Shown: positions 38,962 through 61,372 of the stretch, one piece after another | Position numbering within the stretch: position 1 is the stretch's first letter | How the letters are laid out: every line of letters begins with the position of its first letter | From: Lachnospiraceae bacterium | Lineage (GTDB): Bacteria; Bacillota; Clostridia; Lachnospirales; Lachnospiraceae | DNA: 64,000 bases | Direction: 5' to 3' | Assembly (NCBI GenBank): GCA_910574195.1 | Contig: CAJTBF010000004.1 | Coordinates: forward strand, 186,001-250,000 | Notes under the pieces: generated by a model | Told to the model about the DNA's origin: nothing | Databases searched by the model: none | Seen by the model: the letters and a program-made list of their open reading frames with translations, nothing else | Program-made: the position numbers and the translations under genes

Positions 38962-39042
38962 TATTTCTCCTCTCTTCCCGCGCATTCTGTTTACGCAAGC
39001 ATCTTATAATTCCTTCAAAACATCCTGTGATCTATATTCCCA

Positions 39043-42434: not shown

Positions 42435-43556
42435 TTATTTCTGATACGGATCATCCCACAGAACCAGTTTCTGTCCGATTCCTTCTTTCAATGCGGTCTG
42501 ATACAGATCATATCCCAGGCCTACGTCGAATGTTGCCATTCCACATGCCACGAAACTTACTCTGTCCTTATCGCTGGTACGTCCCGGCTTCTTGCCAAGA
42601 ATCACGTCTCCGATGCTGGTAGAGTCTTCCAGTTTCGGCATCTTTCCTTCATCAATCAGGGTGTAAATCGGGCCGCCGATTACGCCTCTGTAATATTCTG
42701 CTTTGTCTCCGGACTCAATGGCATCCTGTACGTATGCCTGATGCAGTCCCACATTATCATATACCAGGTTCGTGCTCATCCAGAAAGAATCATCTGTCTG
42801 CATCGGACCGGTAATCAGAAGGGTTACACCCTCTTTCAGCCACTCATCTTTTATGTACAACGGTTTTAATCTGGATGCCGCTACGGTGATCACATCGCCT
42901 GCTTTTACGGCTGCTTCCAGGTCGGTCGTTGCCTCTCCGTCAATCTTCAATTCCTCTTTTGCCCAGCTTAAGAACTTCGCAGATGCTTCTTCGAAAATAT
43001 CGTAGCACATGATCTTCTTCGCATTCGGAAGCTGTGTCAGGATAGAACGCAGACAGGAACGGTTAATCTGACCACATCCCAGAACCGTAACCACTTCGGA
43101 ATCTTTTCTTGCAAGATGTCTTGCCGCCACACCAGGTACCGCACCGGTTCTTGCCGCACTCAGCAGGTTCGCTGACATAAATGCAAGCGGTTCTCCGGTA
43201 TCCTTATCGTTCAGAGTAACGGTGAGGACAGATCTGGGAAGTCCCTTCTTCGGATTCGCCGCATTGGAGCCGTACCATTTATTCCCGCATACGTCAAATC
43301 TTCCGCCCAGGTAAGCCGGCATCGCTACAAAACGTCTGTCCGGTCCTGCCACCGGCATGTTCGGGAACGGTGTCTCCTTCGGGAATACCAGTCCAAGTCC
43401 ATGGCTGTTGTGATTGCTTCCTCCCATCAGATAATCACCCTTACTCAACAGGGTAAATACTTCTTCTGCATTGTCAATACACTTCTCCGCATCCAATACG
43501 CCTGCTTTGATTGTATCCTGCTCTGATAAATACAAAAATTCTGTTTTGTGTGCCAT
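42435..43556 (-). CDS. Ornithine cyclodeaminase/mu-crystallin-like dehydrogenase
   Basis: The 373-residue protein starts MAHKTEFLYLSEQDTIKAGVLDAEKCIDN at an ATG with AAAGGAG upstream. The substrate motif LTVTLNDKDTGEPLAFMSANLLSAARTGAVPGVAARHLARKDSEVVTVLGCGQINRSCLRSIL contains the LxxxRTG loop and the Rossmann glycines (GCGQ). The family includes ornithine cyclodeaminase, alanine dehydrogenase and imine reductases; some databases label close relatives tyramine oxidase subunit B. It heads the TRAP operon and so probably acts on the imported compound, likely oxidising an amino or imino acid. Its promoter carries an operator-like palindrome. Confidence 0.85.
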   Translation of the reverse strand: MAHKTEFLYLSEQDTIKAGVLDAEKCIDNAEEVFTLLSKGDYLMGGSNHNSHGLGLVFPKETPFPNMPVAGPDRRFVAMPAYLGGRFDVCGNKWYGSNAANPKKGLPRSVLTVTLNDKDTGEPLAFMSANLLSAARTGAVPGVAARHLARKDSEVVTVLGCGQINRSCLRSILTQLPNAKKIMCYDIFEEASAKFLSWAKEELKIDGEATTDLEAAVKAGDVITVAASRLKPLYIKDEWLKEGVTLLITGPMQTDDSFWMSTNLVYDNVGLHQAYVQDAIESGDKAEYYRGVIGGPIYTLIDEGKMPKLEDSTSIGDVILGKKPGRTSDKDRVSFVACGMATFDVGLGYDLYQTALKEGIGQKLVLWDDPYQK

Positions 43557-43640
43557 TTTCTTTTCTCCTTTCAGGTTCAAAACTTTTTCACACTTTTTAC
43601 ATTTTCCCTTTTCTTTCAGAATGTTTCGTTTGATACATTT

Positions 43641-43669
43641 ATTCTACACTAATATATTGCAAGTGTCAA
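43641..43669 (-). promoter_or_regulatory. Promoter of the TRAP operon with palindromic operator in the spacer
   Basis: On the minus strand TTGACA (43664-43669) and TAGAAT (43641-43646) are exactly 17 bases apart, and the spacer is CTTGCAATATATTAGTG. The half TTGCAATA of the palindrome TTGCAATATATTGCAA is exact here. Transcription should start near 43634, about 80 bases before the start codon. The same arrangement is found at 55341-55369. Confidence 0.8.
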
Positions 43670-43754
43670 CAAGTATTTAACACTTTGTATATTATCTATA
43701 TGTGTGAACCCTATTTTTTGTATGTTTTTGCCTATATCGCATTTTCATTCCATG

Positions 43755-43770
43755 TTGCAATATATTTCAT
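43755..43770. promoter_or_regulatory. Second copy of the palindrome, upstream of the TRAP operon
   Basis: TTGCAATATATTTCAT matches 13 of 16 positions of TTGCAATATATTGCAA. Its centre is 108 bp upstream of the operator inside the promoter, which suits looping on the same face of the helix. Confidence 0.5.
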
Positions 43771-43821
43771 TCTCTGCTTTTCACTTATTTTCGATCCTTT
43801 TTTCCGACTAATCCACGTTTT

Positions 43822-44931
43822 TTATCGCCGAACCGTGCATTCTTTTTCCTGCCGAAAAACTTCCCAAATATGTTCCGCAAATCGTGCCGCCTTTTGTGCA
43901 ATCTGTTCCACCTGTAAAATGCTGCCCGGATCATTTGCCGTTTCAATCAGTGCAAAATTCCCCGGAAGAATAAACGTCTTATTCATATTCAGGCCGCTGA
44001 TTAACTGACGGGCCACAAGATCACCGCCGCTATATCCCGAGACAATGATGGAAAACAAATATTTTTCATAGAACTGCCGTTTTCGGAACAGCGCCGTCAA
44101 CCGGTTGATAAACGCGGTCAGATTGGCCCCCAAAGCATCATTATAATTGGGACAGAGCAAAAGCAGTGCGTCACAGGTTTCTACGGCAGGATACACTTCT
44201 TCGACGATCACCCCGCCATAGTAGCATTCCGATCTCTGGCCGTAATGAAAACACATCTGGTACGGACACCCCTGACAGTCATAAATCTTTCCGTTGTGCA
44301 GCGCGATCTCCTGAATCCGGCAGACATTCTCCAGGTGCATCCGAACCATCCGCCACAAAGAAAGGGTATTGGACGTCTCATAATTACTGGCATGAAGACA
44401 CAACAGCCGCGGATTTTTTTTATACGGTTTCTGAAATGCCAGCAGCCTTTGCAGCATCCGCCTTGCGGATTCCAGATAAGCTCCCGGCAGATCCAGATGC
44501 AGATTTGCCGCCGTAATCCGAAAATTCTGAAGACTTTTTGTCCCTTCCACCAAAGGCTGTCCGATAAAAAGACATCCGGACATATTGGCGGAAAACACCA
44601 CCTCTCTGGCTACGGACTTGGTATCCAGTTCCGAGTCTCCATCTATCAGGAGTCCTGCCGTACTACCTTCCATACCATGCGGATTCCTGCGGATACATTG
44701 CAGCATAGCATACAGTTCCAGATTGATTCCGGTACTTCCAATTGCAACGGCAAACAGAATGCTTTTTCCTTGTAGCTGTCCCGGAAGCAGCATGCTTTGT
44801 TCCAGTTCCGATGCCCGGCGAATCCAGAAAACTTCCGATTCCTTTTTTTTCAGACATTCTGCCAGAAGATCGTCCAACCTTTGGGCGACCGATTCCGTTT
44901 CACATTCCGGTTTCAAAACGACCAACTTCAT
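43822..44931 (-). CDS. Flavodoxin-like (NADPH-dependent FMN reductase-type) protein
   Basis: The 369-residue protein starts MKLVVLKPECETESVAQRL, overlapping the LDH-like gene stop by four bases. The first half (to about 160) is a domain of unknown kind with LPGQLQGKSILFAVAIGSTGINLELYAMLQCIRRNP. The second half is flavodoxin-like: RLLCLHASNYETSNTLSLWRMVRMHL, IYDCQGCPYQMCFHYGQRSECYYGG (cysteines that may bind a cluster) and DALLLLCPNYNDALGANLTAFINRLTALF. It looks like an FMN-dependent reductase, as in the iron-sulfur flavoprotein group. It is coexpressed with the LDH-like protein. The specific reaction is not known. Confidence 0.65.
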   Translation of the reverse strand: MKLVVLKPECETESVAQRLDDLLAECLKKKESEVFWIRRASELEQSMLLPGQLQGKSILFAVAIGSTGINLELYAMLQCIRRNPHGMEGSTAGLLIDGDSELDTKSVAREVVFSANMSGCLFIGQPLVEGTKSLQNFRITAANLHLDLPGAYLESARRMLQRLLAFQKPYKKNPRLLCLHASNYETSNTLSLWRMVRMHLENVCRIQEIALHNGKIYDCQGCPYQMCFHYGQRSECYYGGVIVEEVYPAVETCDALLLLCPNYNDALGANLTAFINRLTALFRKRQFYEKYLFSIIVSGYSGGDLVARQLISGLNMNKTFILPGNFALIETANDPGSILQVEQIAQKAARFAEHIWEVFRQEKECTVRR

Positions 44932-45932
44932 AGCAGATTCTCCAGTTTCCGGTAGGACTCCTGCAGTCTGTGAAACAAAGCCGGAGGAAGCGGAAACTCC
45001 TCCCATTCCACTCCGCATTCCGTGGTCCGATTTTTGCCGCCAAAATAGATCCCACCCAGATAATTGGAACTGTAATTCCACTCTCCCTTCAGCACTCGCA
45101 GAATCGTCAACGCCCCGGAGGAAACAGCAGGCGCAATATAAGGTTTAAAACCAACGTCACGCACCAGCAGATTCGCCCGGATCACCTGTTCTGTGAGAGA
45201 AACCGAACGTTCTTCGTCGTAATGCTCTGTTAAAATACTGTTTGCCACTACCAGTTCCCTGCCATGGGAACCAAACACTCTTCCTTCCGTCAGAAAATCC
45301 TGAAACCGCTCTTCCCTGCGTGCGAAATAAACCGCCCTCGCATTCATCACACCCAGTCCGCACCCCTGAACCTGCTCCGGCATCAATCCATTCCTCCCCC
45401 GCCGGGAAGACAAAAGCACTTCCTTACACAATAATTCTACGGGATCCGACATCACCAGGAATAGGCCCTGATACCCCGCTTCACCGGCTTTCTGTGCATA
45501 CCAGGAGACAATCTTTCTGTTCGCCTCAAATTGCGCCATCCGGACGTCCTCCTGCTCTTTTCCAATGGCGGGAACCTGTTTTGCCACACAAAATACGAAC
45601 ACATCACAGTCAAATAGATCCTCTTCTTTCACACCGTACACCGGCGGGATCCGTCTTCCCCCAAAGGGATCATAGATCTGATTCAGTTCCAGTTCCAGCC
45701 GCCGTACCTGCGCTTCCTGCAGATCATAGATTCCCAGCGCATCAATCACATCGCCTCCCAACATCGCCAGTCCCGTCAAGGTGGTTCTTCCCACATCGCC
45801 AAGACCTGCCAGATGTATTTTCTTCCGCTCCTCTGGCATCCTGCACAGCCAGGAAGGACAAAATCTCCTCCCCGCCTCCCGCTGCCGTTTCAAATTCTGC
45901 AGAGATAACACCGCTTCTGTTCTGTTACACAT
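44928..45932 (-). CDS. Lactate/malate dehydrogenase-like NAD-binding protein
   Basis: The 334-residue protein carries an LDH/MDH-type Rossmann start, KIHLAGLGDVGRTTLTGLAMLGGDVIDALGIYDLQEAQVRRLELELNQI, after a 35-residue N-terminal extension. CDVFVFCVAKQVPAIGKEQEDVRMAQFEANRKIVSWYAQKAGEAGYQGLFLVMSDPVELLCKEVLL follows the expected layout (substrate loop, NPVD-like SDPVE). The catalytic His region is VFGSHGRELVV. The replacements (SDPVE for NPVD) make it a divergent member whose substrate may not be lactate or malate. A GGAGG site precedes the ATG. It forms an operon with the flavodoxin-like gene. Confidence 0.7.
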   Translation of the reverse strand: MCNRTEAVLSLQNLKRQREAGRRFCPSWLCRMPEERKKIHLAGLGDVGRTTLTGLAMLGGDVIDALGIYDLQEAQVRRLELELNQIYDPFGGRRIPPVYGVKEEDLFDCDVFVFCVAKQVPAIGKEQEDVRMAQFEANRKIVSWYAQKAGEAGYQGLFLVMSDPVELLCKEVLLSSRRGRNGLMPEQVQGCGLGVMNARAVYFARREERFQDFLTEGRVFGSHGRELVVANSILTEHYDEERSVSLTEQVIRANLLVRDVGFKPYIAPAVSSGALTILRVLKGEWNYSSNYLGGIYFGGKNRTTECGVEWEEFPLPPALFHRLQESYRKLENLL

Positions 45933-46010
45933 AGCTTCTTCCTCCTACGACAGTTCTATCCGCATCTTTTACAATCTCTTCCTCCCCGTTTCTTATAAAA
46001 AGAGGTATCC

Positions 46011-46062
46011 CGCATTTTATGTGCTTCGCACGAGCGGACGCTTCGCATCCGACAAGGTATAT
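46011..46062. repeat. Interspersed repeat copy C, overlapping a gene end
   Basis: CCCGCATTTTATGTGCTTCGCACGAGCGGACG (46012-46043) matches copy A (26308-26340) almost throughout, then ATCCGACAAGGTATATAG matches copy B. Two small hairpins are visible (GTGCTTCGCAC; CGGACGCTTCGCATCCG). The last about 15 codons of the 1607-residue protein (LYTLSDAKRPLVRST) are encoded by this repeat. Confidence 0.65.
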
Positions 46063-49000
46063 AGGCAGGAAATATTGCGGAGTCTCTTTAATCTCTTTTT
46101 TTCATATTCCAGATAAGAGGATGGAGTTTCATAGGATGTTTCCAATACCTCCATGCCAAGATCCGGGCACCGGGGTTCCGCCATAACCTCTCCCAGACGG
46201 CGTACCGTTAATTTCCGCCCGGTCAGTTTCTGATATTCTTTTTCCAGAAGCGACAGAAGGGCCTGCGCATTTTCCAGACAGAGTTCCGACAACTGGTAGT
46301 ACCCCTCCGCGGAAATCCCTGCCAGATAATGCGGCACCTGGTAAGGCAGGATCGAATTGACCGAGGGAAGGATCATTGTCTGTATTTTTCCCTGATTTTC
46401 CTTCATGATACTATCCCCGCCGATAAAAGGATACATGCCGGATTCCATAAACCACGCCCGCATACTGGGCAGAAAATACACACTGTCAATCTTTTTTCCC
46501 TGTTGATCGGCCAGGTCTTTCCCTCTTCCGGACAGAACGCCCACAATAATTTTACTTACTTCAATTCCCTCTTTTTCCAGCAGCGGATCAATTCCTTTCA
46601 TTCGATATCCTTTGTGGTACAGGTCATCCACAAGAATCACCGGCCTTTGAAATGACTTCACGGTGCGGATCTGAATGGCAAGATTGGCCCCGTTCGGATA
46701 TCCTTTGATCTCAAATCGTTCCATATCCGGAAAATAGATTTTCTCCGCATCCAGTTCCTTTGTCACACAATTGGGCACCAGCATTCCCCTTAGGATTCTC
46801 CCAAAAGGTACGCACATCTTTTTTCCCAGAACCCTCTTCACAGCCTGCACCATCGGCACCTGGTTCTCCTGGGTAATCTTTTGAATCAGACGATGATTCA
46901 GAACCCCCGCGTCGATACACAAGACCAGATTTCCCGGATACAGCCGTGTAAATGCCTGCTGCAGCCGCCGCCTCTGCTCCCATATTTTCTCTTTCATAAT
47001 CCGGCTGCTGCGAAACGGTTCTTTCAATGACATACAGGCATCCCCAAACAATACGATGGGATTGCGCAGATCTACGAGATAACACTCTTCTTCCAGAGGA
47101 AGACGTACAAATCCCTGTGTCAGAAGAAGCTCCCTGTTCTCTGTACCGCCTCTGCAAAACGCATAGGTATATTCTAATTCCGCACAGCGAAGCAGCATTT
47201 CCGTCAAAACAGCCTGCCGGCTGTCCGCCACATCTTCGGCTTTTTTTCCAAAAATACCGGATATCACAGCAATTTTTCCCGAAGCATGTTTCCGTAAATA
47301 CTCTGCCGTCTCCAAATCCCGAAATTCTTCATAAAGATGACGAAGCGACAGGCGGTGAAACAATACGATCCCTATAATCTGCCGATATTGCTGTCCGTCC
47401 CGGATCAGAACTGCTTCTTCCTTCTCCAGATGTGCGGCAGCAGGATTCCGTCCATAATCCCAGTATGTTTTCAGAATCCCCATCATCAGCTCTTTTTTCA
47501 TTCCTGCATCGATCTGTTCTTCATAGTAGACATCCACCGGCACGCTTGCCGTCATAAACTTGAACATAGGTTCCCTGGTATACAGCCCCATATCGTAAAT
47601 ATAATTCTGCACATTCTGATCTACCAGATTGGAAATATCCCGGTTTCGGTCAATATGCTCCCGAATCTTTGTGGAACTGATCTCCTCATATGCCTTCGGC
47701 AGAGTCAAAATGAAAACATCTCCACGAATCGTCTGCCTGTTCTCCACATAGAATTCCTTTTGCTCCCGATCCTCTTCCGAAATATCCTTCCAGGAAGAAG
47801 TCGTTCCCTTCCATGGATTCTTCCGCATGAAAATGATATGTGGAAACTGATGCACCGAGGATTCTTCCACAGGATTTTTATATGCGGAAGCATGTTCCAC
47901 CACATCACTTCCCACCACCAGATATACTTCTCTTTGCGGAAAACATTCCCGCAAGCATTTCAAATCCGATGGATTTGCAATATTCACCGGAATCTCCTCC
48001 GGGAAAAGATACACGTCCGGCAGATCCGCCACCGACATCTTTACAATCTTTTTCCGAATCTGAAAGGGTTGCGTCTTTTTCGACCAGGAAAATTCATCCA
48101 ATGCAAGGTACACCCGAAATCCTCGTTTCTGAATTTCCCTTACAATCTCTTTATGCCCCAGAGAAAACGGATCGAATGTCCCAGGAAAAAACGCGATCTT
48201 TTCGGCATGTACGGAACTAATTTTTTCGTACAGGAACAGGTAATCCGACAAAAACCGATAAATATGATTCAACGCGGCCGCATTGTGATATAAATGCACA
48301 TTGTTCTGTTCCTTGCCCAGTAAGGTCAAAATTTTCCGCCCGGTGGACCGAAAGTAACTGCACTTTTGCTCCAGATCCAGCCGATCACTTCCAAAAATAT
48401 TATGCCCGATAATATAGAATGCTTCCCGGCTGACTTCTCCCCGGTAATGCGCCATCCCCCGGAAAAGCAGACCTTCGGAAATCTCCCGGCACCACGCATA
48501 GAACCGTTTTCTTTCAGGGGAGCGATGCCCGTAGGCAAAGAAATGCTGCAGAAGCATCCCGATGGTCTCCAACGTCACGATCGCCGATTTGGGATTGGTA
48601 CTGTCAATCATTTTGCGGAACAGCTCCAGCAGTTCCCGCTGCGCATCGCCGGAAAGGCAGAAAAAAATCTTCCCTAAATATTCCGGAATGTATTTTGAGA
48701 TAGAATATTCCCCGATTTCCAATCCCCGTACCAGCTCCATTGCAATCTCATATTTTTCCGTATCGGACAGATACTGAATCAGATAAGTCAATTCATTCCC
48801 CGCATGATGTTTAATTACGATACGATCGCTGTTCTGAAGCATATTCACCAGATGCGCGCATAACTGAAAAATTTCTTTCTTATCCCTCAGACAATATTCT
48901 TTTAAAATTTCCAGATTCACCAACTTAAAAATCCAGGGGGCGTCAATCTGCTGATTCTCCAAAAACAACCTGGATACCGTCTGTTTTTTCATCTGAAAGA

Positions 49001-50840
49001 ACAGAGCCGTTTTCTTTGTCTCCCCCAGATTCCGGTTGATTTTTCCGATCAGATACTGGCAGCACACCGGCAGCTCCTCCGCCGGAATCCTGCATGTTTC
49101 CAGCATGTTCCTTTCATCCTCATCCGGTCTCCAGCCCTGTTCCGTCCATAATTTCAAAAATCGAAGCGCTGTTGTATACAATTCCGGATTGTTACGCTCC
49201 AACGCCGTCCTTGCAAAAGAAAAAAGTACCTTCCTCTGTTCCTTTCCAAACATGCAGAAAGAAAAATCACCGGCACAGTCCATCAGAACAAATATCACCA
49301 GGTCGTCCCAGTCCTTTTTCGTATAATATTTCAAAAATCCTTTCAGGATATCCGGCTTCTTCTCCTCGGGCACCCGCTGGATTACCGTCGAAAACACCGT
49401 CTTCATGGCATAGCCAAGCCACCGTTTATGTTGTTCTGAAATCTTATGATCCGGAATCAGGACAAGCCGGAGTACTTCTTCCCATTTATCCGTCACGGAC
49501 GCGCCGCGGTCCAGCTCCAGAAAACCTTCCGGCACTTCCTTCTGGTAGTGAATCTCATAATCCGACACAAATTTCCCGATAATCCGCGCCGCCTGCCTGC
49601 GGATATCTCCGTCGCGGTGCATCATCATTTCGTAGAGAAATTTCATGGAAGCATCCTTCTGGGAATAGGTCATATACGTAGAATATTCCTCCAGAATATT
49701 CAAATAGGAGCGCACATTTCTCCAGTCCTTTTCACTCTTTGCCTCTTCCAGAAGACTTACAAACCGGCTTTCCTGTATCATATTGTGCATCACCACAATA
49801 TTGGACTGTATGGCCTTGTATTTCATGCGGTCCACAATTCCCTGCTGTTCTAGAAGAGAGGCACTTTTCTGTTTGGGCGCACCCTGGAAACCTTTCTCCA
49901 AATCCGGCGATACCCCGAAACTTTTCAGAAATTCTTCAAAATCTTTCAGCTTCTGAAACACCTTCCGGTAACGGTTTCGCTTTTTCTCATCCACATTGTC
50001 AAGCTTACTTAAGATTACGTCATAAGACTCATCCAGAGTCCAGAACCGAATGATCTCGCCGCCTTTTTTGTCCGGCACGCTTTTTACACGGAAATCGGCA
50101 TAGATCAATAACAGACTTTCAATTGAAAGATTTTCCAGTTCCAGATCCCATGTGGAATGATTGGCCGCAATATGCCCGATCGTTTCAAAATGAAACCGTT
50201 TGGAAAACTGCGCCGTATAATAATAATGTAGATACGGAACTCTCCGCGCTTCCCTGGAACGGCATCCAAACTTCCCGATATCATGAATCATAGCCGCCGA
50301 AGAGATCAGCGCCATATCAATCTGCACCGGCGTCTCTTTCAATTGACGTGCAATATGCATCGCAACAAAATGTACCCCGGCAATATGGCCCAATGTATTG
50401 AAGGGCGTCGCCTCCCTGGCGATTCGCAGAAACGCGTACACTTCCAATTCCCGGAAGGTTTGCAGATACTGCAGATATTCCTCTTTGACCCCGCTCTCCT
50501 CTACTTCTTCCTCCGACACGTCGGCAAAATCCCGGCAGCGGTCGAATGCCATCTGCTGTTTCTCCTGTTCCAGTAATGTTTCCAGAACTTCCAGATAAAA
50601 TTTTCTTGCAGGTTCCAATCCTTCCCGCGGCGTCCATTCGCCATACCCCGGAAAATAAATCTCGATAAACGACTGATATAAATCCCGCATCCAAACCGCA
50701 GTATCTTCAGAGTCCCGACAGAAATGATTCATAATCGGAAGACACTTTTCCAGCACCTCCCGGCAGCTCACTTCCCGAAACGGCACCGAACACTCTGCAA
50801 TGATCCTTTCTTTTTCTTTTTCCATGAAATACGTTTCCAT
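46017..50840 (-). CDS. 1607-residue multidomain protein: HD domain, helical repeats, NMNAT-like and phosphoribosyltransferase domains
   Basis: Domains read by eye, in order: (1) an HD-type domain at about 150-250 with GHIAGVHFVAMHIA, AAMIHDIGKFGCRSRE and HIAANHSTWDLE; (2) a long helical region about 340-860 with HEAT-like repeats (REMMMHRDGDIRRQAARIIGKFV type); (3) a nicotinate/nicotinamide-mononucleotide adenylyltransferase-like domain about 880-1090 with FFPGTFDPFSLGHKEIV, YLVVGSDVVEHASAYKN and the ISSTKIREHI motif; (4) an intermediate domain about 1100-1260; (5) a phosphoribosyltransferase domain about 1390-1480 with the PRPP motif VILVDDLYHKGYRM. A metal-dependent phosphohydrolase, an adenylyltransferase and a PRTase in one chain suggests a nucleotide/NAD-related enzyme or sensor. 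Function unproven. The start ATG has no strong ribosome site. The upstream region carries five 23-bp direct repeats. Confidence 0.75.
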   Translation of the reverse strand: METYFMEKEKERIIAECSVPFREVSCREVLEKCLPIMNHFCRDSEDTAVWMRDLYQSFIEIYFPGYGEWTPREGLEPARKFYLEVLETLLEQEKQQMAFDRCRDFADVSEEEVEESGVKEEYLQYLQTFRELEVYAFLRIAREATPFNTLGHIAGVHFVAMHIARQLKETPVQIDMALISSAAMIHDIGKFGCRSREARRVPYLHYYYTAQFSKRFHFETIGHIAANHSTWDLELENLSIESLLLIYADFRVKSVPDKKGGEIIRFWTLDESYDVILSKLDNVDEKKRNRYRKVFQKLKDFEEFLKSFGVSPDLEKGFQGAPKQKSASLLEQQGIVDRMKYKAIQSNIVVMHNMIQESRFVSLLEEAKSEKDWRNVRSYLNILEEYSTYMTYSQKDASMKFLYEMMMHRDGDIRRQAARIIGKFVSDYEIHYQKEVPEGFLELDRGASVTDKWEEVLRLVLIPDHKISEQHKRWLGYAMKTVFSTVIQRVPEEKKPDILKGFLKYYTKKDWDDLVIFVLMDCAGDFSFCMFGKEQRKVLFSFARTALERNNPELYTTALRFLKLWTEQGWRPDEDERNMLETCRIPAEELPVCCQYLIGKINRNLGETKKTALFFQMKKQTVSRLFLENQQIDAPWIFKLVNLEILKEYCLRDKKEIFQLCAHLVNMLQNSDRIVIKHHAGNELTYLIQYLSDTEKYEIAMELVRGLEIGEYSISKYIPEYLGKIFFCLSGDAQRELLELFRKMIDSTNPKSAIVTLETIGMLLQHFFAYGHRSPERKRFYAWCREISEGLLFRGMAHYRGEVSREAFYIIGHNIFGSDRLDLEQKCSYFRSTGRKILTLLGKEQNNVHLYHNAAALNHIYRFLSDYLFLYEKISSVHAEKIAFFPGTFDPFSLGHKEIVREIQKRGFRVYLALDEFSWSKKTQPFQIRKKIVKMSVADLPDVYLFPEEIPVNIANPSDLKCLRECFPQREVYLVVGSDVVEHASAYKNPVEESSVHQFPHIIFMRKNPWKGTTSSWKDISEEDREQKEFYVENRQTIRGDVFILTLPKAYEEISSTKIREHIDRNRDISNLVDQNVQNYIYDMGLYTREPMFKFMTASVPVDVYYEEQIDAGMKKELMMGILKTYWDYGRNPAAAHLEKEEAVLIRDGQQYRQIIGIVLFHRLSLRHLYEEFRDLETAEYLRKHASGKIAVISGIFGKKAEDVADSRQAVLTEMLLRCAELEYTYAFCRGGTENRELLLTQGFVRLPLEEECYLVDLRNPIVLFGDACMSLKEPFRSSRIMKEKIWEQRRRLQQAFTRLYPGNLVLCIDAGVLNHRLIQKITQENQVPMVQAVKRVLGKKMCVPFGRILRGMLVPNCVTKELDAEKIYFPDMERFEIKGYPNGANLAIQIRTVKSFQRPVILVDDLYHKGYRMKGIDPLLEKEGIEVSKIIVGVLSGRGKDLADQQGKKIDSVYFLPSMRAWFMESGMYPFIGGDSIMKENQGKIQTMILPSVNSILPYQVPHYLAGISAEGYYQLSELCLENAQALLSLLEKEYQKLTGRKLTVRRLGEVMAEPRCPDLGMEVLETSYETPSSYLEYEKKRLKRLRNISCLYTLSDAKRPLVRST

Positions 50841-50909
50841 CTGTCGCCTCCTCCCCGGTCTCCCATCCCATGAAAGACATCTGAAACTCTATCTGTGCAC
50901 AGCCTCTTC

Positions 50910-51024
50910 GCATATTGGTCCGCACCCTTTTTGGATATTAGTCCATAATCTTTTTGCATATTGGTCTACAACCTTTTTGGATATTGGTCCACAGCCCTTT
51001 TGGATATTGGTCCACAGCCCTTTT
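50910..51024. repeat. Five tandem 23-bp direct repeats upstream of the 1607-residue protein
   Basis: Units start at 50910, 50933, 50956, 50979 and 51002, with consensus GGATATTGGTCCACAGCCCTTTT. The last two are identical; the first three differ at two to five positions. Degenerate partial units flank both ends. The period is exactly 23 bp with no spacers, so it is not a CRISPR array. It lies between the gdhA end and the large gene, 70-185 bases upstream of the latter, so it may be a cluster of protein-binding sites (about two helical turns apart) in the leader or promoter. Confidence 0.85.
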
Positions 51025-51046
51025 GGATATTGGGATATATACAAAA

Positions 51047-51106
51047 GGGAAAAGCCGGAATCCTCCCCTGCAAAAAAATCACAGACAGGCCTTTTCCGGC
51101 TTTTCC
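51047..51106 (-). terminator. Terminator of gdhA
   Basis: GGAAAAGCCGGAA (51048-51060) pairs perfectly with TTCCGGCTTTTCC (51094-51106); the 33-base loop is long, and TTTTG follows on the minus strand. It is about 25 bases after the gdhA stop and next to the direct repeats. Confidence 0.65.
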
Positions 51107-51130
51107 TTTGATAAACAGTGCAACTTGTTA

Positions 51131-52477
51131 TCAGCAAACACCTTGTGCAAGCATCGCTTCCGCAACCTTCCGGAAACCGGCAAGATTCGCTCCCACTACA
51201 TAATTTCCAGAACATCCATAGCTTTCCGCCGCATTATGGATACTTTGGAAGATATCCTTCATAATTCTTCTCAACTGCTCATCCACCTCTTCTGCTGTCC
51301 AGGAAAGGTGTTCTGCATTCTGGGACATCTCCAGAGACGATACCGCCACGCCTCCTGCATTCACCGCCTTCGACGGAAGAACCGCAATGCCGTTTCGCAT
51401 CAGCAGATCCATTGCCTCCTGAGTAGTCGGCATATTGGATACTTCAATCAGGATCTTGCTTGCTCCTTCTTCTAAAATTCTACGCGCATCTTCTTCGTGA
51501 ATTTCGTTCTGCGTTGCGCATGGCATATAAATATCCGCATTTACTCTTCCCCACGGTTTTTCTCCCGCATGGTATTCCACGTGGAATTTATCCGCATAAT
51601 CTTTTACCATATCCCGGCAGGAAGCCCGCATCTCCAACAGATACTCTACCTTTTCTCCGGTTACGCCGTCTTTGTCATAAATATAACCGTCCGGGCCGGA
51701 AAGGCTCACCACTTTTCCGCCAAGTTCATTGATCTTCTTACATACGCCCCAGGAAACATTTCCGAATCCGGAAAGTGCAAAGGTCGTACCTGCGATCTCT
51801 TTTCCAATGCTCTTAAAATATTCTTCCGTAAAATATACCGCTCCATAGCCTGTTGCTTCCGTACGTCCCAGAGATCCGCCGTAAGCCAGGCCTTTTCCGG
51901 AAAGTGCTCCTGCTTTATAGGAACCGCAGATTCTCTTATATTGTCCGTACAGATAACCGATCTCTCTTGCACCCACTCCGATGTCTCCCGCCGGACAGTC
52001 TGTATCCGGCCCGATGTAACGGTACAGCTCCGTCATAAAGGACTGGCAGAACCGCATCACTTCTCCGTCGGATTTCCCTTTCGGATCAAAATCGGAACCG
52101 CCTTTTCCTCCGCCGATGGGCAAACCGGTCAAAGAGTTCTTAAAAATCTGCTCAAATCCCAGAAACTTGACTACACTCATATTCACGGAAGGCTGAAAAC
52201 GAAGTCCTCCTTTATAGGGCCCGATACTGCTGGAAAACTGTACACGGAATCCCCGGTTCACCTGTACTTTTCCCTGATCGTCCACCCAGGGAACCCGGAA
52301 GATTACCGCTTTTTCCGGTTCCACCAGACGTTCCAGAATCCCCGCTTTTTCATATCTGTCATCCTCATCCACAATCGGACGCAAAGAATTTAAAACCTCT
52401 CTTACCGTCTGCAGAAACTCCGGCTGATCCGGATTCTTCGCTTCTGTTTCTGCAATCACTCTATCTACATATGACAT
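51131..52477 (-). CDS. gdhA: NADP-type glutamate dehydrogenase
   Basis: GdhA interconverts 2-oxoglutarate plus ammonia and glutamate. The 448-residue protein starts MSYVDRVIAETEAKNPDQPEF; a TTG three codons earlier is less likely. Hallmarks: IGPYKGGLRFQPSVNMSVVKFLGFEQIFKNSLTGLPIGGGKGGSDFDPKGKSD near 90 (with the catalytic lysine in GGGKGGSDF), TDCPAGDIGVGAREIGYLYGQYKR near 162, and the NADP-binding FALSGFGNVSWGV near 240. In this neighbourhood it could recycle ammonia released from amino-compound catabolism. A perfect 11-bp stem hairpin lies just before it (52511-52539). Confidence 0.96.
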   Translation of the reverse strand: MSYVDRVIAETEAKNPDQPEFLQTVREVLNSLRPIVDEDDRYEKAGILERLVEPEKAVIFRVPWVDDQGKVQVNRGFRVQFSSSIGPYKGGLRFQPSVNMSVVKFLGFEQIFKNSLTGLPIGGGKGGSDFDPKGKSDGEVMRFCQSFMTELYRYIGPDTDCPAGDIGVGAREIGYLYGQYKRICGSYKAGALSGKGLAYGGSLGRTEATGYGAVYFTEEYFKSIGKEIAGTTFALSGFGNVSWGVCKKINELGGKVVSLSGPDGYIYDKDGVTGEKVEYLLEMRASCRDMVKDYADKFHVEYHAGEKPWGRVNADIYMPCATQNEIHEEDARRILEEGASKILIEVSNMPTTQEAMDLLMRNGIAVLPSKAVNAGGVAVSSLEMSQNAEHLSWTAEEVDEQLRRIMKDIFQSIHNAAESYGCSGNYVVGANLAGFRKVAEAMLAQGVC

Positions 52478-52510
52478 TTTCCCCAAACTCCATTTCTTGT
52501 GTTTTTTCTA

Positions 52511-52539
52511 TCCTGCCGGACCCCCAACGTCCGGCAGGA
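52511..52539. other. Perfect 11-bp stem hairpin between enolase-like and gdhA genes
   Basis: TCCTGCCGGAC and GTCCGGCAGGA frame a seven-base loop in the 83-base gap between the enolase-like stop and the gdhA start. It is not followed by a U tract on either strand, so it is more likely an RNA stabiliser or processing site than a terminator. Confidence 0.45.
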
Positions 52540-52560
52540 CGCTACCGATAAGACGACAAA

Positions 52561-53835
52561 TCAAAATTTCAAAATCGAGCTAATATCCGCCAGTTTACAC
52601 CCTGGAGCCAGATCGCAGGCACGCATCAGGAAATTCAATTTATCAATTCGTTCTCCTGAACGCGGCGCTCCGTTTTTGATAAATCCAACCTGGAGTCCCA
52701 CTGCCAGATCCATTACCACATCTCCGATTACACCGCCGGCCCGACCGGAAGTAATTGCCAGCATATCGTGTGCCTGTGCATATTCATAAGTCTCCAGCGC
52801 TTCGGTAATCGTTCCTACCTGATTTGGTTTCAGAATGAAACCGTCCAGCGCGTTCAACTCATAAGCACGCTCCAGACGCGCCCGGTTCGTCACAATAAAA
52901 TCATCCCCGATGATATTGGTTCTCGTAATTTCTTTATTCGCCTTCGGGTAATTCTCCCAGTCTTCTTCATCCAGAAGGTCTTCAATAAATACAAAGTTGA
53001 ATTTCTCGGTCAGCATCTTCGTATATGCGATCAATTCCTCCGCCGAAACACGCTTTCCTTTCAGCAGATACGTGCTGCTCTCCCGATCATACATCTCGCT
53101 GGATGCACAGTCAAATGCAAAACCGATCTTTCCGGTATATCCACAGTTCTCAATGGCCTCGGAGATCAGATTCAGAATCACTTCCGGATCTTCGGACGGA
53201 GCGGCATATCCGTAGGAAGGCGCCACTTCCGGTTTTCTTCCCAGATATTTTGTAATCACCTTTTCCAGTTCCTGGAATGTATTGATGCCCATCTCCACGG
53301 AATCATAAATAGAATCTGCTCCGTAAGGCATGATGATAAACTCGTTAAACGGCTGCGTCAACGTCGCGTAATGCCCGCCGTTTACCACGTTGAAACTGGG
53401 AACCGGAACCGTTTTGATCGAGCCGCCCGCGATATAGTCATACAAAGTCTGATGCGCTGCTTCCGCCGCCGCGCGGAATGTTGCAATAGATACGGAGTAA
53501 ATCGCATTGCCGCCCAGCACCTTCTTCTCCGGTGTCCCGTCCAATTCAATCATTTTCCGGTCAATGGCTTTCTGATCTGCCACATCCATCCCGATCAGCG
53601 CCGGCGCAATGATGTTGTTCACATTGTCCACTGCCTTATGTACGCTCAGGCCATGATACTCGGAAGGGTCATTGTCACGTAGCACGCAGGACTCAAACTT
53701 TCCGACAGAAGAGCCGGTGGGCGCACAGCCTCTTCCCAGATATCCGTCCTCTGTAACCACATCTACTTCTACCATGGGTCTGCATTTGCAATCCACAATC
53801 TGTCGTGCATGAACTGATTTAATCTTAGAACTCAT
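52561..53835 (-). CDS. Divergent enolase paralogue with altered active site
   Basis: The 424-residue protein is an enolase-superfamily member closest to phosphopyruvate hydratase: IVDCKCRPMVEVDVVTEDGYLGRGCAPTGSSVGKFES, LDGTPEKKVLGGNAIYSVSIA. By hand alignment to E. coli enolase the metal ligands are kept (FDCASSEMY, VFIEDLLDE, IIGDDFIVTN), as are both lysines (ILKPNQVGT and FIKNGAPRSGER). However GGEHADN becomes GGHYATL, the GDEGGYAPN loop (catalytic Glu) becomes APSYGYAAP, and SHRSGET becomes SGRAGGV. It is therefore unlikely to be the housekeeping enolase and may dehydrate another phospho-hydroxy acid. The gene lies directly after the glycerate 2-kinase and shares its promoter. Confidence 0.85.
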   Translation of the reverse strand: MSSKIKSVHARQIVDCKCRPMVEVDVVTEDGYLGRGCAPTGSSVGKFESCVLRDNDPSEYHGLSVHKAVDNVNNIIAPALIGMDVADQKAIDRKMIELDGTPEKKVLGGNAIYSVSIATFRAAAEAAHQTLYDYIAGGSIKTVPVPSFNVVNGGHYATLTQPFNEFIIMPYGADSIYDSVEMGINTFQELEKVITKYLGRKPEVAPSYGYAAPSEDPEVILNLISEAIENCGYTGKIGFAFDCASSEMYDRESSTYLLKGKRVSAEELIAYTKMLTEKFNFVFIEDLLDEEDWENYPKANKEITRTNIIGDDFIVTNRARLERAYELNALDGFILKPNQVGTITEALETYEYAQAHDMLAITSGRAGGVIGDVVMDLAVGLQVGFIKNGAPRSGERIDKLNFLMRACDLAPGCKLADISSILKF

Positions 53836-53837
53836 TC

Positions 53838-55244
53838 TTATTTGCCCTCCACTTCCGGAATATACAACACATTAAAGTCACACAAATTCGTACCTGTATT
53901 TCCTGTGAAAACTGCATCCTCCATTGCATCCAATGCTTCATAACACGCATGGCCGCGGAGAGAGCCGAATACATCTACCCCTTTTCCCAGCGCGGTTTTG
54001 TAACTTGTGGAATCACAGATTCCGCCTGCCACCGGTGTCGTGCCGTCCGTTCCCTCTGAATCAATGGAAAGCATGCAGGCACCTTTTGTCTTTGCTGCAA
54101 GAATTGAAAAGCTCAATGTCAGTTCCTGTCCCGGTCCGCCATGTCCCGTAATCAGGCTGTTGTCCAGAATCTGCGTCGTTGTCTCTCCGGAACTTAAGAT
54201 CACACATGGCGGCTTGATCGGATTGCCGTATGCCTGTACTTCTCTTGCAATCGAAGCAAAGAAGGAACCTGCGTCCTTACTTTCCCCTTCCAGGAAGGAA
54301 GAAAGAATAATTGCCGGAATTCCCATCTCTTCTGCAATCTCTTTTGCATAGATGCAGGAATCCGGAAGCGTGTTCAGCAAGAAGTAGGTATTATCCGGAA
54401 ATGCCTTCGGCGTCTCGCCTTCCGGCCCTACATTCATCAAATAATCTACCACGCTCTTCGGAAGACGGTCCGCCACATTGTAATCTTTGATGACTCTGCG
54501 TGCATCTTCCAATGTGGTCTTGTCCGGCCCCATCGGCGTGCTGGCATATTTTGCATAAGGGATCCCGATATCACCCGTTGCCGGATTACCTACCGCGTCA
54601 CTGATTCCAAATCCGATCAGCTCCGCACCGACAGACTGAATCCGCTTCGCCAGCATTCCGCCGTTCATGGCAGAAATATGCCGCCGGATTGCATTCACTT
54701 CATAAATGCCTGCACCGGATTTCAGCATAACATCCGTGGTTTTAATCTCATCTTCCAGTGTAATCCCTTCAATCGGGCAGCTCATAAGCGCGGAACTTCC
54801 GCCGCTGATTACCACAATGAAAAGATCGTCCGGTCCGGCCTGGTCCACCAGGTCCAGAATTTTCAGACATGCCTCATAGCCCGCCTGATTGGGGAGCGGA
54901 TGCCCTCCCACATAAACGTCTGTATTTTGAAAATGATCCGATTCCTCTGAAATCTTTACAATTGCAATTCCTTTTGTCAGTTTGTCGCCGAGAACCTCGT
55001 CCACCGCCATTGCCATATGATTGCAGGCTTTCCCGGCACCCAGCAGATATACATGTTTTTTCTTTGACAAATCCCATGTCTTCGTTCCGATATGCAGGAT
55101 GTCTCCCTCAAGATGCATGATGCTTTTGATACGTTCGTAGGCATCCAATCGCTGCAGCGTCTTCTCTGTAATATCCAGCACGATCTTTCTGGATTTTACA
55201 TCACCATGAGACGTCAGAGCATCATAATTTTTGATTTTTTTCAT
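53838..55244 (-). CDS. Glycerate 2-kinase (MOFRL/DUF4147 family)
   Basis: The 468-residue protein starts MKKIKNYDALTSHGDVKSRKIVLDI after GGAGG at a five-base spacing. Family features: HVYLLGAGKACNHMAMAVDEVL near 64 (kinase N-domain), GGHPLPNQAGYEACLKILDLVD and VVISGGSSALMSCP near 110-145, GAGIYEVNAIRRHISAMNGGMLAKRI near 175, and the MOFRL C-terminus VILSSGETTTQILDN ... GHGGPGQELTLSFSILAAKTKGACMLSIDSEGTDGTTPVAGGICDSTSY near 340-410. These enzymes phosphorylate D-glycerate at position 2, giving 2-phosphoglycerate. With an enolase-like enzyme downstream, a glycerate-like acid would be directed toward a PEP-type product. Confidence 0.93.
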   Translation of the reverse strand: MKKIKNYDALTSHGDVKSRKIVLDITEKTLQRLDAYERIKSIMHLEGDILHIGTKTWDLSKKKHVYLLGAGKACNHMAMAVDEVLGDKLTKGIAIVKISEESDHFQNTDVYVGGHPLPNQAGYEACLKILDLVDQAGPDDLFIVVISGGSSALMSCPIEGITLEDEIKTTDVMLKSGAGIYEVNAIRRHISAMNGGMLAKRIQSVGAELIGFGISDAVGNPATGDIGIPYAKYASTPMGPDKTTLEDARRVIKDYNVADRLPKSVVDYLMNVGPEGETPKAFPDNTYFLLNTLPDSCIYAKEIAEEMGIPAIILSSFLEGESKDAGSFFASIAREVQAYGNPIKPPCVILSSGETTTQILDNSLITGHGGPGQELTLSFSILAAKTKGACMLSIDSEGTDGTTPVAGGICDSTSYKTALGKGVDVFGSLRGHACYEALDAMEDAVFTGNTGTNLCDFNVLYIPEVEGK

Positions 55245-55340
55245 ATAATCCTCCAATCTTAATAATGCCTTGCAGAAGATGTCCGTTCGGACATCTGATT
55301 TTGAAACATAATGAAAGAAAATGTATTAAAAGATACTTTT

Positions 55341-55369
55341 ATTGTATTGCAATATATTGCAAATGTCAA
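55341..55369 (-). promoter_or_regulatory. Promoter of the kinase/enolase operon with perfect palindrome in the spacer
   Basis: On the minus strand TTGACA (55364-55369) and TACAAT (55341-55346) are exactly 17 bases apart, and the spacer is T plus the perfect palindrome TTGCAATATATTGCAA (55347-55362). A repressor bound there would cover both boxes. The start of transcription should be near 55334, about 90 bases before the kinase start. The gap 55245-55558 holds this promoter and a weaker palindrome copy at 55454-55469. Confidence 0.85.
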
Positions 55370-55453
55370 TTGGAACTTCCATTTTCATCATTATAGCTAT
55401 TTTTATCCATTTTCTCCGCAATTTTAGTTCCTGTTTTCGGCATTTTTACCAAT

Positions 55454-55469
55454 ACGCAATATATAACCT
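55454..55469. promoter_or_regulatory. Weak second copy of the palindrome upstream of the kinase operon
   Basis: ACGCAATATATAACCT keeps the core GCAATATAT of TTGCAATATATTGCAA. Its centre is 107 bp from the promoter operator, nearly the same distance as the pair at the TRAP operon (108 bp). Confidence 0.4.
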
Positions 55470-55558
55470 TTCTTAATCATGCCCCTCTCCCGCCCAAATA
55501 CATTTGCACCGAAATAGGAAACCGCGCATTGGATATCTCTTCTTCAGGAATTTTTCGT

Positions 55559-56506
55559 TCACTGACATGCCAGCGACGCATAGAATTCCCGGATCTGTCC
55601 GGCTACCATATGGATCAGATCCGTCCTGGTCTCCACACTGGCCCATGCAATATGCGGGGTAATCAAAAGTCTGTTCTTATCTTTTACACCGAGCAGAGGA
55701 CTAAAAGCGGACATAGGTTCCTCCACGATGACATCCAGCCCTGCAGCGGCAATCCTGCCGGTATTCAACGCATCCACCAGCGCTTCTTCCACCACCACAG
55801 CCCCGCGGCTGAGATTTAAAAATACCGCCCCCGGTTTCATTCGTCCGAATGCTTCTGCATTCAGCAGCCCGGCAGAGTATGTATTCAGCGGAACATGGAC
55901 CGAGATAATATCCGACTCCTCCAGCAAGGCAGCAAAATCCACCTGCCGATATCCTTCCTGGGGAGCAGCGCCGGACACGGAACAATAGATCACGTCTGCC
56001 CCAAATGCACGCGCAATGTCCGCCACCCTTCTTCCGATGGCGCCCAGTCCGATAATTCCCCAGGTTGCGCCCGCAATCCTGTGAAATCCTGTGGACATAT
56101 GATCAAACGTGTAGTCTCCGATATAATGCCCTTCTCTTACATAATCATCATAAAAGCGTAAATGTTCCATCAGATACAGCAGCATAGCGAATGTATGCTG
56201 CGCCACAGAATCCGAAGAATATCCGGCCACATTCCGCCAGGCAATTTTCTTCCGTTCCAGATACTCCTTATCCAGATTGTCGGTTCCCGTTGCCGCAACG
56301 CAGACCAGTTTCAAATTTTTCGCCGTATGAATCGTGTACTCGTTGACCGGAACCATATTGATCACAATCACATCCGCATCTTTCACCCGCTCCGGAATTT
56401 CTTCCGGCATACTGAAATCATAGGATTCTACCTCCCCCATTTCAGAAAACAAAGAATAATCCAGATCGTCCCCGATGGTTTTTCTGTCAAGAAATACAAT
56501 TTTCAT
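55559..56506 (-). CDS. D-2-hydroxyacid dehydrogenase (NAD)
   Basis: The 315-residue enzyme is of the D-lactate/glycerate dehydrogenase family. The NAD-binding motif GIIGLGAIGRRVADIARAFGADVIYCS is near residue 145. The catalytic Arg, Glu and His are in FLNLSRGAVVVEEALVDAL near 235, AAGLDVIVEEPM near 253 and LITPHIAWASVETRTDL near 280. It could interconvert hydroxypyruvate and D-glycerate or another 2-keto/hydroxy acid pair. A palindrome copy (56616-56629) lies about 110 bases upstream. Confidence 0.92.
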   Translation of the reverse strand: MKIVFLDRKTIGDDLDYSLFSEMGEVESYDFSMPEEIPERVKDADVIVINMVPVNEYTIHTAKNLKLVCVAATGTDNLDKEYLERKKIAWRNVAGYSSDSVAQHTFAMLLYLMEHLRFYDDYVREGHYIGDYTFDHMSTGFHRIAGATWGIIGLGAIGRRVADIARAFGADVIYCSVSGAAPQEGYRQVDFAALLEESDIISVHVPLNTYSAGLLNAEAFGRMKPGAVFLNLSRGAVVVEEALVDALNTGRIAAAGLDVIVEEPMSAFSPLLGVKDKNRLLITPHIAWASVETRTDLIHMVAGQIREFYASLACQ

Positions 56507-56615
56507 AATGATTCCCTCCTTTTTTACTTTCCTGCACTTTTGCAGGCGCTCCTACCTTATTATAAATGTTTTTCCGGTTCGCTCAGATCTTTCCCATATG
56601 CAACATATCAGCATC

Positions 56616-56629
56616 TGCAATATATTACA
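56616..56629. promoter_or_regulatory. Palindrome copy upstream of the D-2-hydroxyacid dehydrogenase
   Basis: TGCAATATATTACA matches 13 of the 14 core positions of TTGCAATATATTGCAA. A weak -35 (TTGAAG) lies before it on the minus strand, but no good -10 at the right distance was found, so the promoter geometry differs from the other two. Confidence 0.5.
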
Positions 56630-56925
56630 CCACTTCAAAATCCTCCGCTATTCTGAAATCTTCCATCCGATTTCGTAGAGATTGTTCACAAATGTTCTAT
56701 TTAATACATTCATATTACTATACTGTATTCTCATCGTCAATACGTATCGTCCCTCATCTCAGGCGCCATGCCGTTATCGGGTGCACCCTTATAATTTTTT
56801 TAGAAAAAGGAGAATTCTGTGACTCTGTCTTGCTTTCCTGACAAAAGGGATGTAAAATAAGTCTATATGTAAAAAAGACTTTCAGGAAATCTCCGTATTC
56901 TGACTGAGACTTTCTTACAAGTCAA

Positions 56926-57066: not shown

Positions 57067-57774
57067 ATGCCAATTATGCTGGAGGAAATTACAGAGGAAC
57101 ATTTAAAAGAAAAAGATTGTATATATAATCTGTTAAAACAATGGATCGTAGAAGGAAAGTTGGAACCCGCAGAAAAAATCTCGGATCTTGAAATCGCAAA
57201 AGTATTCCACGTAAGCCGTACTCCGGTGCGGGAAGCGCTCAAGCGTCTCGAGGCCCAGAAGCTAATTGTAATGAAGCCCGGAAAATCAACCATTGTTTCA
57301 GAGATCGAGACAAATAATATCGAACAGTGGTATCAGCCGATGTCCGTACTTCAGCAGCTGGCCACCAAGATCGCCGCATCCAGAATGACGCCGGAGCACA
57401 TCCTGCATCTGAATGAAATCAATGAAAACTTTCGTATCGCGCTGGAAAAAAACCGACATCTGGACAGTTTTGAATATGACAAAGAATTTCATGAATATAT
57501 CCTGAAAGTGGCAGGTAACGAATACATCATTGATTTTTGCAATACGCTGATGATTCATATTCAACGTCTGGAATATAAACATTTCAAAACCGGTGGAAAA
57601 ATCATACAGTCAGTCATGGACCATCAAAAGATCATCCAGGCTTTCGAAGTAAAAGATGAATTTATGGCACAGCAAATGATGCTCAATAACTGGCAGATGA
57701 CAGTGTTAAATCTGCGGGCTATATTAAACATTCCCCCGGAAGAATCAAGTTCTTCCCCGCAGTCCAATCCGTAA
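57067..57774 (+). CDS. GntR-family (FadR-type) transcription regulator
   Basis: From the ATG at 57067 (GGAGG, seven bases upstream) the protein has 235 residues. The winged helix is CIYNLLKQWIVEGKLEPAEKISDLEIAKVFHVSRTPVREALKRLEAQKLIVMKPGKSTIVSEI. The C-terminal part is an all-helical FCD-like ligand domain (LQQLATKIAASRMTPEHILHLNEINENFRIALEKN; EYDKEFHEYILKVAGNEYIIDFCNTLMIHIQRLEY). FCD domains bind small organic acids with a metal. It is the natural candidate for the factor that binds the TTGCAATATATTGCAA sites. Confidence 0.92.
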   Translation: MPIMLEEITEEHLKEKDCIYNLLKQWIVEGKLEPAEKISDLEIAKVFHVSRTPVREALKRLEAQKLIVMKPGKSTIVSEIETNNIEQWYQPMSVLQQLATKIAASRMTPEHILHLNEINENFRIALEKNRHLDSFEYDKEFHEYILKVAGNEYIIDFCNTLMIHIQRLEYKHFKTGGKIIQSVMDHQKIIQAFEVKDEFMAQQMMLNNWQMTVLNLRAILNIPPEESSSSPQSNP

Positions 57775-61351: not shown

Positions 61352-61372
61352 ATCCGATTCTCCCTTACTTTC

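Follow-up and report, generated by a model that had tools for sequence, protein, structure and literature searches.

The DNA analysed here is a 64-kb window (C4:186001-250000, the whole stretch under study) of the 3.96 Mb genome of a Lachnospiraceae bacterium. It contains neighbouring genes for an ornithine cyclodeaminase/mu-crystallin family dehydrogenase (OCD) with a TRAP transporter, a glycerate 2-kinase-like protein with an enolase paralogue, and a D-2-hydroxyacid dehydrogenase. Comparison of this locus with its relatives in other genomes makes it probable that it forms a small two-regulator regulon, with a GntR-family protein acting on a dyad in the promoter spacer and an RpiR-family protein on a dyad in the start region, both as repressors. 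The initial annotation of this DNA had described the first dyad as an operator shared by two promoters, and had attributed the whole regulon to the GntR protein. Its observation is confirmed and its interpretation partly supported, with one addition, the predicted RpiR operator, and two corrections, concerning DNA looping and the dyad copy before the dehydrogenase gene.

Composite promoters of the locus

The first dyad, a 16-bp sequence TTGCRATATATYGCAA, is the GntR-type motif of the locus. Its annotated sequences and coordinates were borne out, since both minus-strand promoters carry TTGACA and a 17-bp spacer filled by the motif, and the second, weaker copies upstream of them were also recovered. 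The second dyad, AATGTATTAAAT..AACATT, also written AATGTATTAAAT(N3)ACATT, came to light when the intergenic regions of G003 were aligned with those of the window. G003, a genome of the same genus, has nearly the same locus (GntR 81%, RpiR 84%, kinase 93% and OCD 93% identical), and the alignment revealed a conserved core of the first dyad within diverging flanks. The promoter elements, the predicted sites and the two regulator genes are listed below, with G249 and G374 designating two further genomes with related loci.

43620..43669, minus strand: composite promoter of the OCD-TRAP operon, with -35 TTGACA (43669-43664), a 17-bp spacer and -10 TAGAAT (43646-43641); same layout in G003, G249 and G374
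43662-43647, minus strand: GntR-type site TTGCAATATATTAGTG in the spacer of this promoter, with one good half only
43639-43620, minus strand: RpiR-type dyad AATGTATCAAACGAAACATT of this promoter
43755..43770, plus strand: upstream GntR-type site with 2 mismatches, 108 bp from the OCD-TRAP promoter site
55320..55369, minus strand: composite promoter of the glycerate-kinase-like/enolase-like operon, with -35 TTGACA (55369-55364), a 17-bp spacer and -10 TACAAT (55346-55341); same layout in G003, G249 and G374
55362-55347, minus strand: GntR-type site in the spacer of this promoter, a perfect dyad
55339-55320, minus strand: RpiR-type site of this promoter, in a 2-mismatch form
55454..55469, no strand assigned: weak GntR-type copy with 10 of 16 letters, scoring at noise, upstream of the promoter site at a distance of 107 bp
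56691..56740, minus strand: D-2-hydroxyacid dehydrogenase promoter, with TTGACG (56740-56735), a 17-bp spacer and -10 TAATAT (56717-56712); same promoter and dyad in G003
56710-56691, minus strand: RpiR-type dyad AATGTATTAAATAGAACATT of the dehydrogenase promoter
56615..56630, plus strand: GntR-type site in the dehydrogenase leader with 3 mismatches, downstream of the promoter
57067..57774, plus strand: GntR-family regulator with FCD domain (PF00392, PF07729), proposed binder of TTGCRATATATYGCAA
57982..58830, minus strand: RpiR-family regulator (HTH_6 and SIS domains, PF01418 and PF01380, above cut-off), proposed binder of AATGTATTAAATNNNACATT

Eight OCD and kinase promoters from four genomes share one layout, consisting of TTGAC(A/T), a 17-bp spacer, a -10 element, one base and a 20-bp RpiR-type dyad, and positions 2-17 of the spacer correspond to the GntR site in all eight. 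Thus, as far as predicted sites go, each of the two main promoters is a rigid composite in the order -35, GntR site, -10, RpiR site. The second dyad begins one base after the -10 element in all three promoters of the window. The spacer sites of the kinase promoters show 0-2 mismatches to the GntR consensus. Upstream of the OCD promoter, G003 has TTGCGATATATTACAA at 120 bp, and upstream of its kinase gene a better copy than that of the window, at the same 107-bp spacing. G374 harbours a further perfect-consensus GntR site before a glutamate-dehydrogenase-like gene.

With regard to the dehydrogenase, the annotated copy does lie before the gene, but not in its promoter, which is likely to be the TTGACG-17-TAATAT arrangement at 56740-56712, about 100 bp upstream of the copy. 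No clear GntR site was found in the spacer of this promoter in the window, and the corresponding spacer in G003 shows 5 mismatches to the consensus, equal to the OCD sites of G003 and G374. The downstream GntR site is about 103 bp from the spacer centre in the window, against 238 bp in G003. By eye, the G003 site falls in the spacer of a promoter-like TTGACT-17-TATAAT sequence pointing towards the GntR gene.

The abundance of the GntR-type motif depends on the stringency of the search. At up to three mismatches, the genome scan proposed in the initial annotation is uninformative (47 sites against about 36 expected), while in the 64-kb window four sites were found against 0.60 expected, a number reached in none of 100 shuffles; one of these four, at 58477, falls inside the RpiR coding sequence. 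The 11-mer core TGCAATATATT is concentrated at the locus: its 11 strand hits in the genome (about 2.9 expected) represent 10 sites, of which four fall within these 13 kb, and the six others comprise four inside open reading frames (ORFs) and two that are not. Five sites with up to two mismatches occur genome-wide against about 2.5 expected, two of them in the promoter regions described here. The good promoter-linked sites are local, because the other three all sit inside ORFs (241-483 codons) outside the locus. When the window was scored with a matrix trained on other genomes, 55347 ranked first, 43755 second, 58477 third and 56615 fourth. The coding site 58477-58492 was treated as a chance match, the RpiR gene of G003 having no site with up to four mismatches.

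The second dyad stands out with a matrix built from other genomes, the three promoter dyads ranking first to third in the window (25.2, 21.0 and 17.6 bits) and the fourth hit scoring 12.8 bits. The pattern AATGTATNAAANNRAACATT has only two perfect matches in the genome, at 43639-43620 and 56710-56691, the same two sites from which it was written. Elsewhere in the genome, four copies of AATGTTTCACGTGAAACATT (C24:6261-7667), which turned up only through their likeness to this search pattern, resemble parS partition sites.

Probable assignment of the two dyads to regulators

The GntR protein combines an N-terminal winged helix (PF00392, 68.9 bits, cut-off 27) with a C-terminal FCD domain (PF07729, 68.6 bits, cut-off 24.3), and its residues D138, H142, H164 and H186, invariant in 8 homologues, may correspond to the metal/ligand-binding Asp and His residues of the FCD subfamily. 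Among solved structures, the closest in sequence is a distant relative (7xp0, E 1.4e-17). It resembles other FadR-subfamily regulators in its domain organisation, in a predicted short dyad overlapping promoter elements and in putative local target genes, but the exact string of this operator was not found in the open-licence literature. The RpiR protein shares with HexR, RccR and other RpiR/SIS regulators the HTH_6 and SIS domains and, if the second dyad is indeed its operator, a pseudo-palindromic binding site with TGT/ACA arms. It differs in its partners, namely OCD, kinase-like, enolase-like and dehydrogenase genes, and in a match to the HexR model that is only remote (31 bits, cut-off 296). 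A third candidate regulator, the helix-turn-helix-aminotransferase gene at 59792-61375, was set aside, G003 having no match to it in 40 kb.

To establish which regulator accompanies which dyad, related loci were collected from searches with the kinase (250 genomes of the family and 12 of the genus), with GntR and OCD (397 genomes), and with GntR in 392 genomes of the order. The resulting co-occurrence table holds 16 loci, and the chosen upstream regions of each were scored with matrices to which its own genome had not contributed. Three further loci were omitted, namely G024a, which lies on a short contig with an uncertain start of the operon, and G273b and G273c, in which the sole homologue is that of OCD. 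Both regulators are encoded in G000, G003, G249, G374 and G171, only the GntR protein in G252, G288, G198 and G448 (the last from another family), and only the RpiR protein in G240, G024b, G070 and G273a, while neither was found in the fetched stretches of G260 (a 17 kb contig), G200 and G330. The GntR motif is present in 8 of the 9 loci with the GntR gene (p<=0.0175 each) and in none of the 7 without it (p>=0.1575; Fisher p 0.0014), which supports the earlier proposal that the protein encoded at 57067 binds it. The second dyad is present in all 9 loci with the RpiR gene (p<=0.01) and in none of the 7 others (p>=0.0875; Fisher p 0.00009). The RpiR homologues of the four RpiR-only loci are 36-47% identical and are accompanied by the second dyad only, with no GntR match in the fetched stretch.

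The reverse assignment, with RpiR or another regulator on the TTGCAATATATTGCAA dyad and GntR on the +1 dyad, could be considered because four loci contain both proteins and both motifs, as does a fifth, G171, apart from its truncated first motif. We regard it as most improbable, because the loci with one protein only split cleanly the opposite way, and the +1 dyad is similar to TGTAATTAAATTACA, a motif predicted for the RpiR-family protein HexR in PMC11906056.

Searches with an exact pattern led to the same association. WTGCRATATATYGCAW occurs at 17 sites in 16 of the 397 genomes, namely in 5 of the 7 genomes with a GntR homologue (E<=1e-35) and in 11 of the 390 others (p=1e-6), and all 6 sites in the former fall less than 2 kb from the homologue. 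The other 11 have no close GntR homologue in their 1.5 kb flanks, and their number is near the approximately nine that a hand estimate from base composition predicts by chance. The reversed pattern appears to have given one site in one genome, as a control with different dinucleotides. Among 56 loci of other FCD GntR proteins, analysed as two sets of 28 with at least one gene (G019) in both, a single one carries a site with up to two mismatches. The GntR profile matched in 45 of the 392 genomes of the order, where only the window (358 bits) and G448 (225 bits) stand out, the next match reaching 152 bits, and for this reason the next 28 loci, of 43 further matches, were treated as paralogues. 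A GntR search of genome contigs returned one locus, on the G003 contig.

The four GntR-only loci come from other genera and one other family, and in each of them the GntR homologue, with 36-42% identity to the window protein or its sisters, is divergent from a diaminopropionate ammonia-lyase (DAL) gene or gene run, and the GntR motif lies next to the GntR gene (in G448 with 2 or 3 mismatches). In G288 and G198, the divergent gene itself passes the curated DAL cut-off, and in G252 the DAL gene occupies the third place of the divergent run, preceded by genes for a YgeY-type hydrolase and a DcuC-type carrier. The proteins of these three genomes score 607-643 bits on this model (cut-off 532); that of G448 falls just short with 519 bits, and reaches 509 bits on a second DAL model with a cut-off of 276. 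No match to the other 20 window proteins tested was found in the fetched 17-20 kb of these loci. They share the GntR protein and its motif with the locus studied here, but Pfam scans of window proteins revealed no member of the PALP family, that of DAL. Title searches of the open-licence literature retrieved no DAL-linked GntR regulator of this kind, and likewise none for ygeX combined with a diaminopropionate regulator.

These loci also bear on the idea that the repeat is no operator, the two promoters being duplicates of one AT-rich promoter and alike by descent. Their likeness does extend over 50 bp, but the dyad recurs in the four DAL loci, lies outside a TTGAC-type spacer in G288 and G448 (by eye), and keeps its core between the window and G003 while the flanks diverge, so that a common origin as the sole explanation appears very improbable. 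Because the motif accompanies the GntR/FCD protein in different genomes and different gene neighbourhoods, this protein is very probably its binder.

Proposed mode of control by the two regulators

We propose that the GntR/FCD protein binds TTGCRATATATYGCAA between the -35 and -10 elements of the OCD-TRAP and kinase/enolase-like promoters, where it would block the binding of RNA polymerase, with nearby extra copies raising its occupancy. The RpiR/SIS protein would bind the second dyad at about -5 to +15 of these two promoters and of the dehydrogenase promoter, and would block initiation or escape from the start region. Full expression would then need the release of both regulators, and the tandem arrangement of the sites suggests a promoter that fires only when two signals coincide. 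The ligands of FCD domains are usually small acids or amino acids, and those of SIS domains phosphorylated sugars or acids. By such family habits, the GntR protein may detect the acid or amino acid that is imported, and the RpiR protein a phosphorylated intermediate, perhaps the product of the kinase. According to PMC5489143, RccR and HexR respond to the phosphorylated keto acid KDPG.

The initial annotation had proposed that GntR alone controls all units and that the paired sites loop the DNA over about ten helical turns. The local motif that follows the GntR gene agrees with a GntR-controlled regulon, but this description is incomplete, since the second, RpiR-linked dyad is present in all three promoters, is equally strongly conserved, and in the dehydrogenase promoter of the window stands without a clear GntR site. 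As for looping, paired copies do recur in six genomes, and the pair at the kinase promoter has exactly the same 107-bp spacing in G003. The eight pairs span 107-139 bp (108 and 107 in the window, 120 and 107 in G003, 131 in G249, 112 in G374, 134 in G288 and 139 in G448) with no constant helical phase, and in G249 and G374 the pair consists of the two divergent promoters. Looping with constant phase is not supported by these spacings, and looping between paired operators in general is weakly supported, as pairs recur but their spacing varies. Control by GntR alone is thus unlikely, and cooperative or local-concentration effects between GntR sites may operate instead.

We judge it quite unlikely that GntR activates or determines a basal level and that RpiR is the sole repressor. 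Some regulators bind promoter spacers to activate, and sequence cannot distinguish the two modes; nevertheless, a 17-bp spacer with a consensus -35 element would suggest a strong promoter needing repression rather than help.

Several observations weigh against dual control by GntR and RpiR, or limit it. The training sites and intergenic regions were selected by eye from loci that are related to one another; the p-values given above are therefore optimistic, and the counts, though strong, do not amount to independent trials. Among the nine GntR loci, G171 lacks a full GntR site; its contig starts inside the OCD promoter and opens with consecutive C residues and sequence that looks like a sequencing-library adapter, this start is probably an assembly artefact, and the surviving piece of the promoter reads GCGATATATCG beside an intact second dyad. 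In the four OCD promoters, the site in the spacer matches the GntR consensus poorly, with 3-5 mismatches. In the window, 43647 alone scores at noise level, and with the held-out matrix this promoter site ranks 9th and 55454 6th, no better than shuffles; both are retained for their position and their conservation in G003, where the spacer of the OCD promoter reads GAGCGATATATTAAAG. For the second dyad, AATGTATNAAANNRAACATT at 3 mismatches gives a modest genome-wide excess, with 92 strand hits (40+52) against 54 (24+30) for the reversed control, and RpiR homologues outside G003 are only 36-58% identical. RpiR proteins can also activate, so that dual repression is not certain. Finally, no GntR site was found in the likely GntR promoter of the window (56830-56858), nor between GntR and RpiR in G249, G374 and G171. 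Self-control by GntR is therefore not general, and the regulator of the window may not control itself. The candidate promoter at 56830-56858, TTGCTT-17-TAAAAT, is partly conserved in G003 by eye.

Genes of the proposed regulon and their possible pathway

The genes of the locus discussed here are the following.

37672..38985, minus strand: LarA-like hydroxyacid racemase, beside TRAP genes also in G003 and G249
39369..39911, minus strand: presumed TRAP small permease DctQ, named by its position beside DctP and DctM alone
39927..41012, minus strand: TRAP solute-binding protein DctP
41064..42347, minus strand: TRAP large permease DctM
42435..43580, minus strand: OCD, passing NF004848 (library name: tyramine oxidase subunit B)
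51131..52486, minus strand: glutamate dehydrogenase, NADP type by NCBIfam
52561..53835, minus strand: enolase paralogue with altered active-site motifs
53838..55256, minus strand: glycerate 2-kinase-like protein (DUF4147-MOFRL)
55559..56506, minus strand: D-2-hydroxyacid dehydrogenase

The LarA-like protein scores 313-321 bits on its two best models, below their cut-offs of 460-500, and the kinase-like protein is far below the cut-offs of two NCBIfam glycerate 2-kinase models (172 of 550 and 152 of 670 bits). The enolase paralogue of the window passes the glycolytic enolase model TIGR01060 (381 bits, cut-off 300). GDEGG and SHRSGE are absent in all 12 paralogue sequences from these loci, which keep the acidic residues and the lysine of the KPNQ segment, with roles that we take from enolase biochemistry (metal binding for the acidic residues). 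Homologues of its clade are present in G003, G249, G260, G024, G070, G200, G240, G374 and G330, and the paralogue was close to a kinase-like gene in all of 11 loci, 9 of which also have an OCD gene nearby. A canonical enolase, 40% identical to the paralogue and possessing both GDEGG and SHRSGE, is encoded on another contig of the genome. Since these motifs are missing from the paralogues and the genome has a canonical enolase besides, a change of substrate or leaving group is likely; 2-phosphoglycerate is probably not the substrate, and phosphopyruvate hydratase, the name assigned automatically, is probably incorrect here.

Glycerate catabolism consists of hydroxyacid dehydrogenase, glycerate 2-kinase and enolase. 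The same three enzyme families stand side by side at this locus, which differs from that pathway in its enolase paralogue without canonical active-site motifs. The hydroxy-acid/amino-acid label given to the regulon in the initial annotation is a guess at class level. The association of GntR homologues with DAL genes hints, by analogy, at diaminopropionate or a similar C3 amino acid as the GntR ligand; for the pathway, a 3-amino C3 acid is accordingly a sensible candidate to start from, no more. One could imagine that the TRAP system imports a C3 hydroxy or amino acid, that the OCD-family enzyme, the LarA-like racemase and the glycerate-kinase-like enzyme process it, and that a new enzyme of the enolase superfamily then forms phosphoenolpyruvate by expelling a leaving group that is not hydroxyl, for instance an amine, with GntR reading the substrate and RpiR the phosphorylated intermediate at an AND-gate promoter. 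As a whole, this undescribed pathway is rather unlikely.

Two further stretches were noticed in the window. The first (46017-50840) encodes a 1607-residue protein with HD and nucleotidyltransferase (nicotinate-nucleotide adenylyltransferase-like) domains, followed by LDH-like and FMN-reductase-like genes; it is 66-73% identical in G003, with no match in the other loci searched. The second (32944-34809) encodes a 621-residue protein whose sole Pfam match is the pyruvate phosphate dikinase ATP-binding domain, and which is 83% identical in G003 near the same locus.

A matching two-regulator system was not found among the titles listed from the open-licence literature. The parts are of known kinds, and three neighbouring gene clusters appear to be switched together by two DNA-binding proteins. 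The analysis provides testable candidate operators for both regulators, in a two-operator promoter of fixed geometry in four genomes, and the regulon marks genes that probably belong to one pathway. Among these, the enolase paralogue satisfies the standard enolase model, is probably no glycolytic enolase and is likely misnamed in databases.

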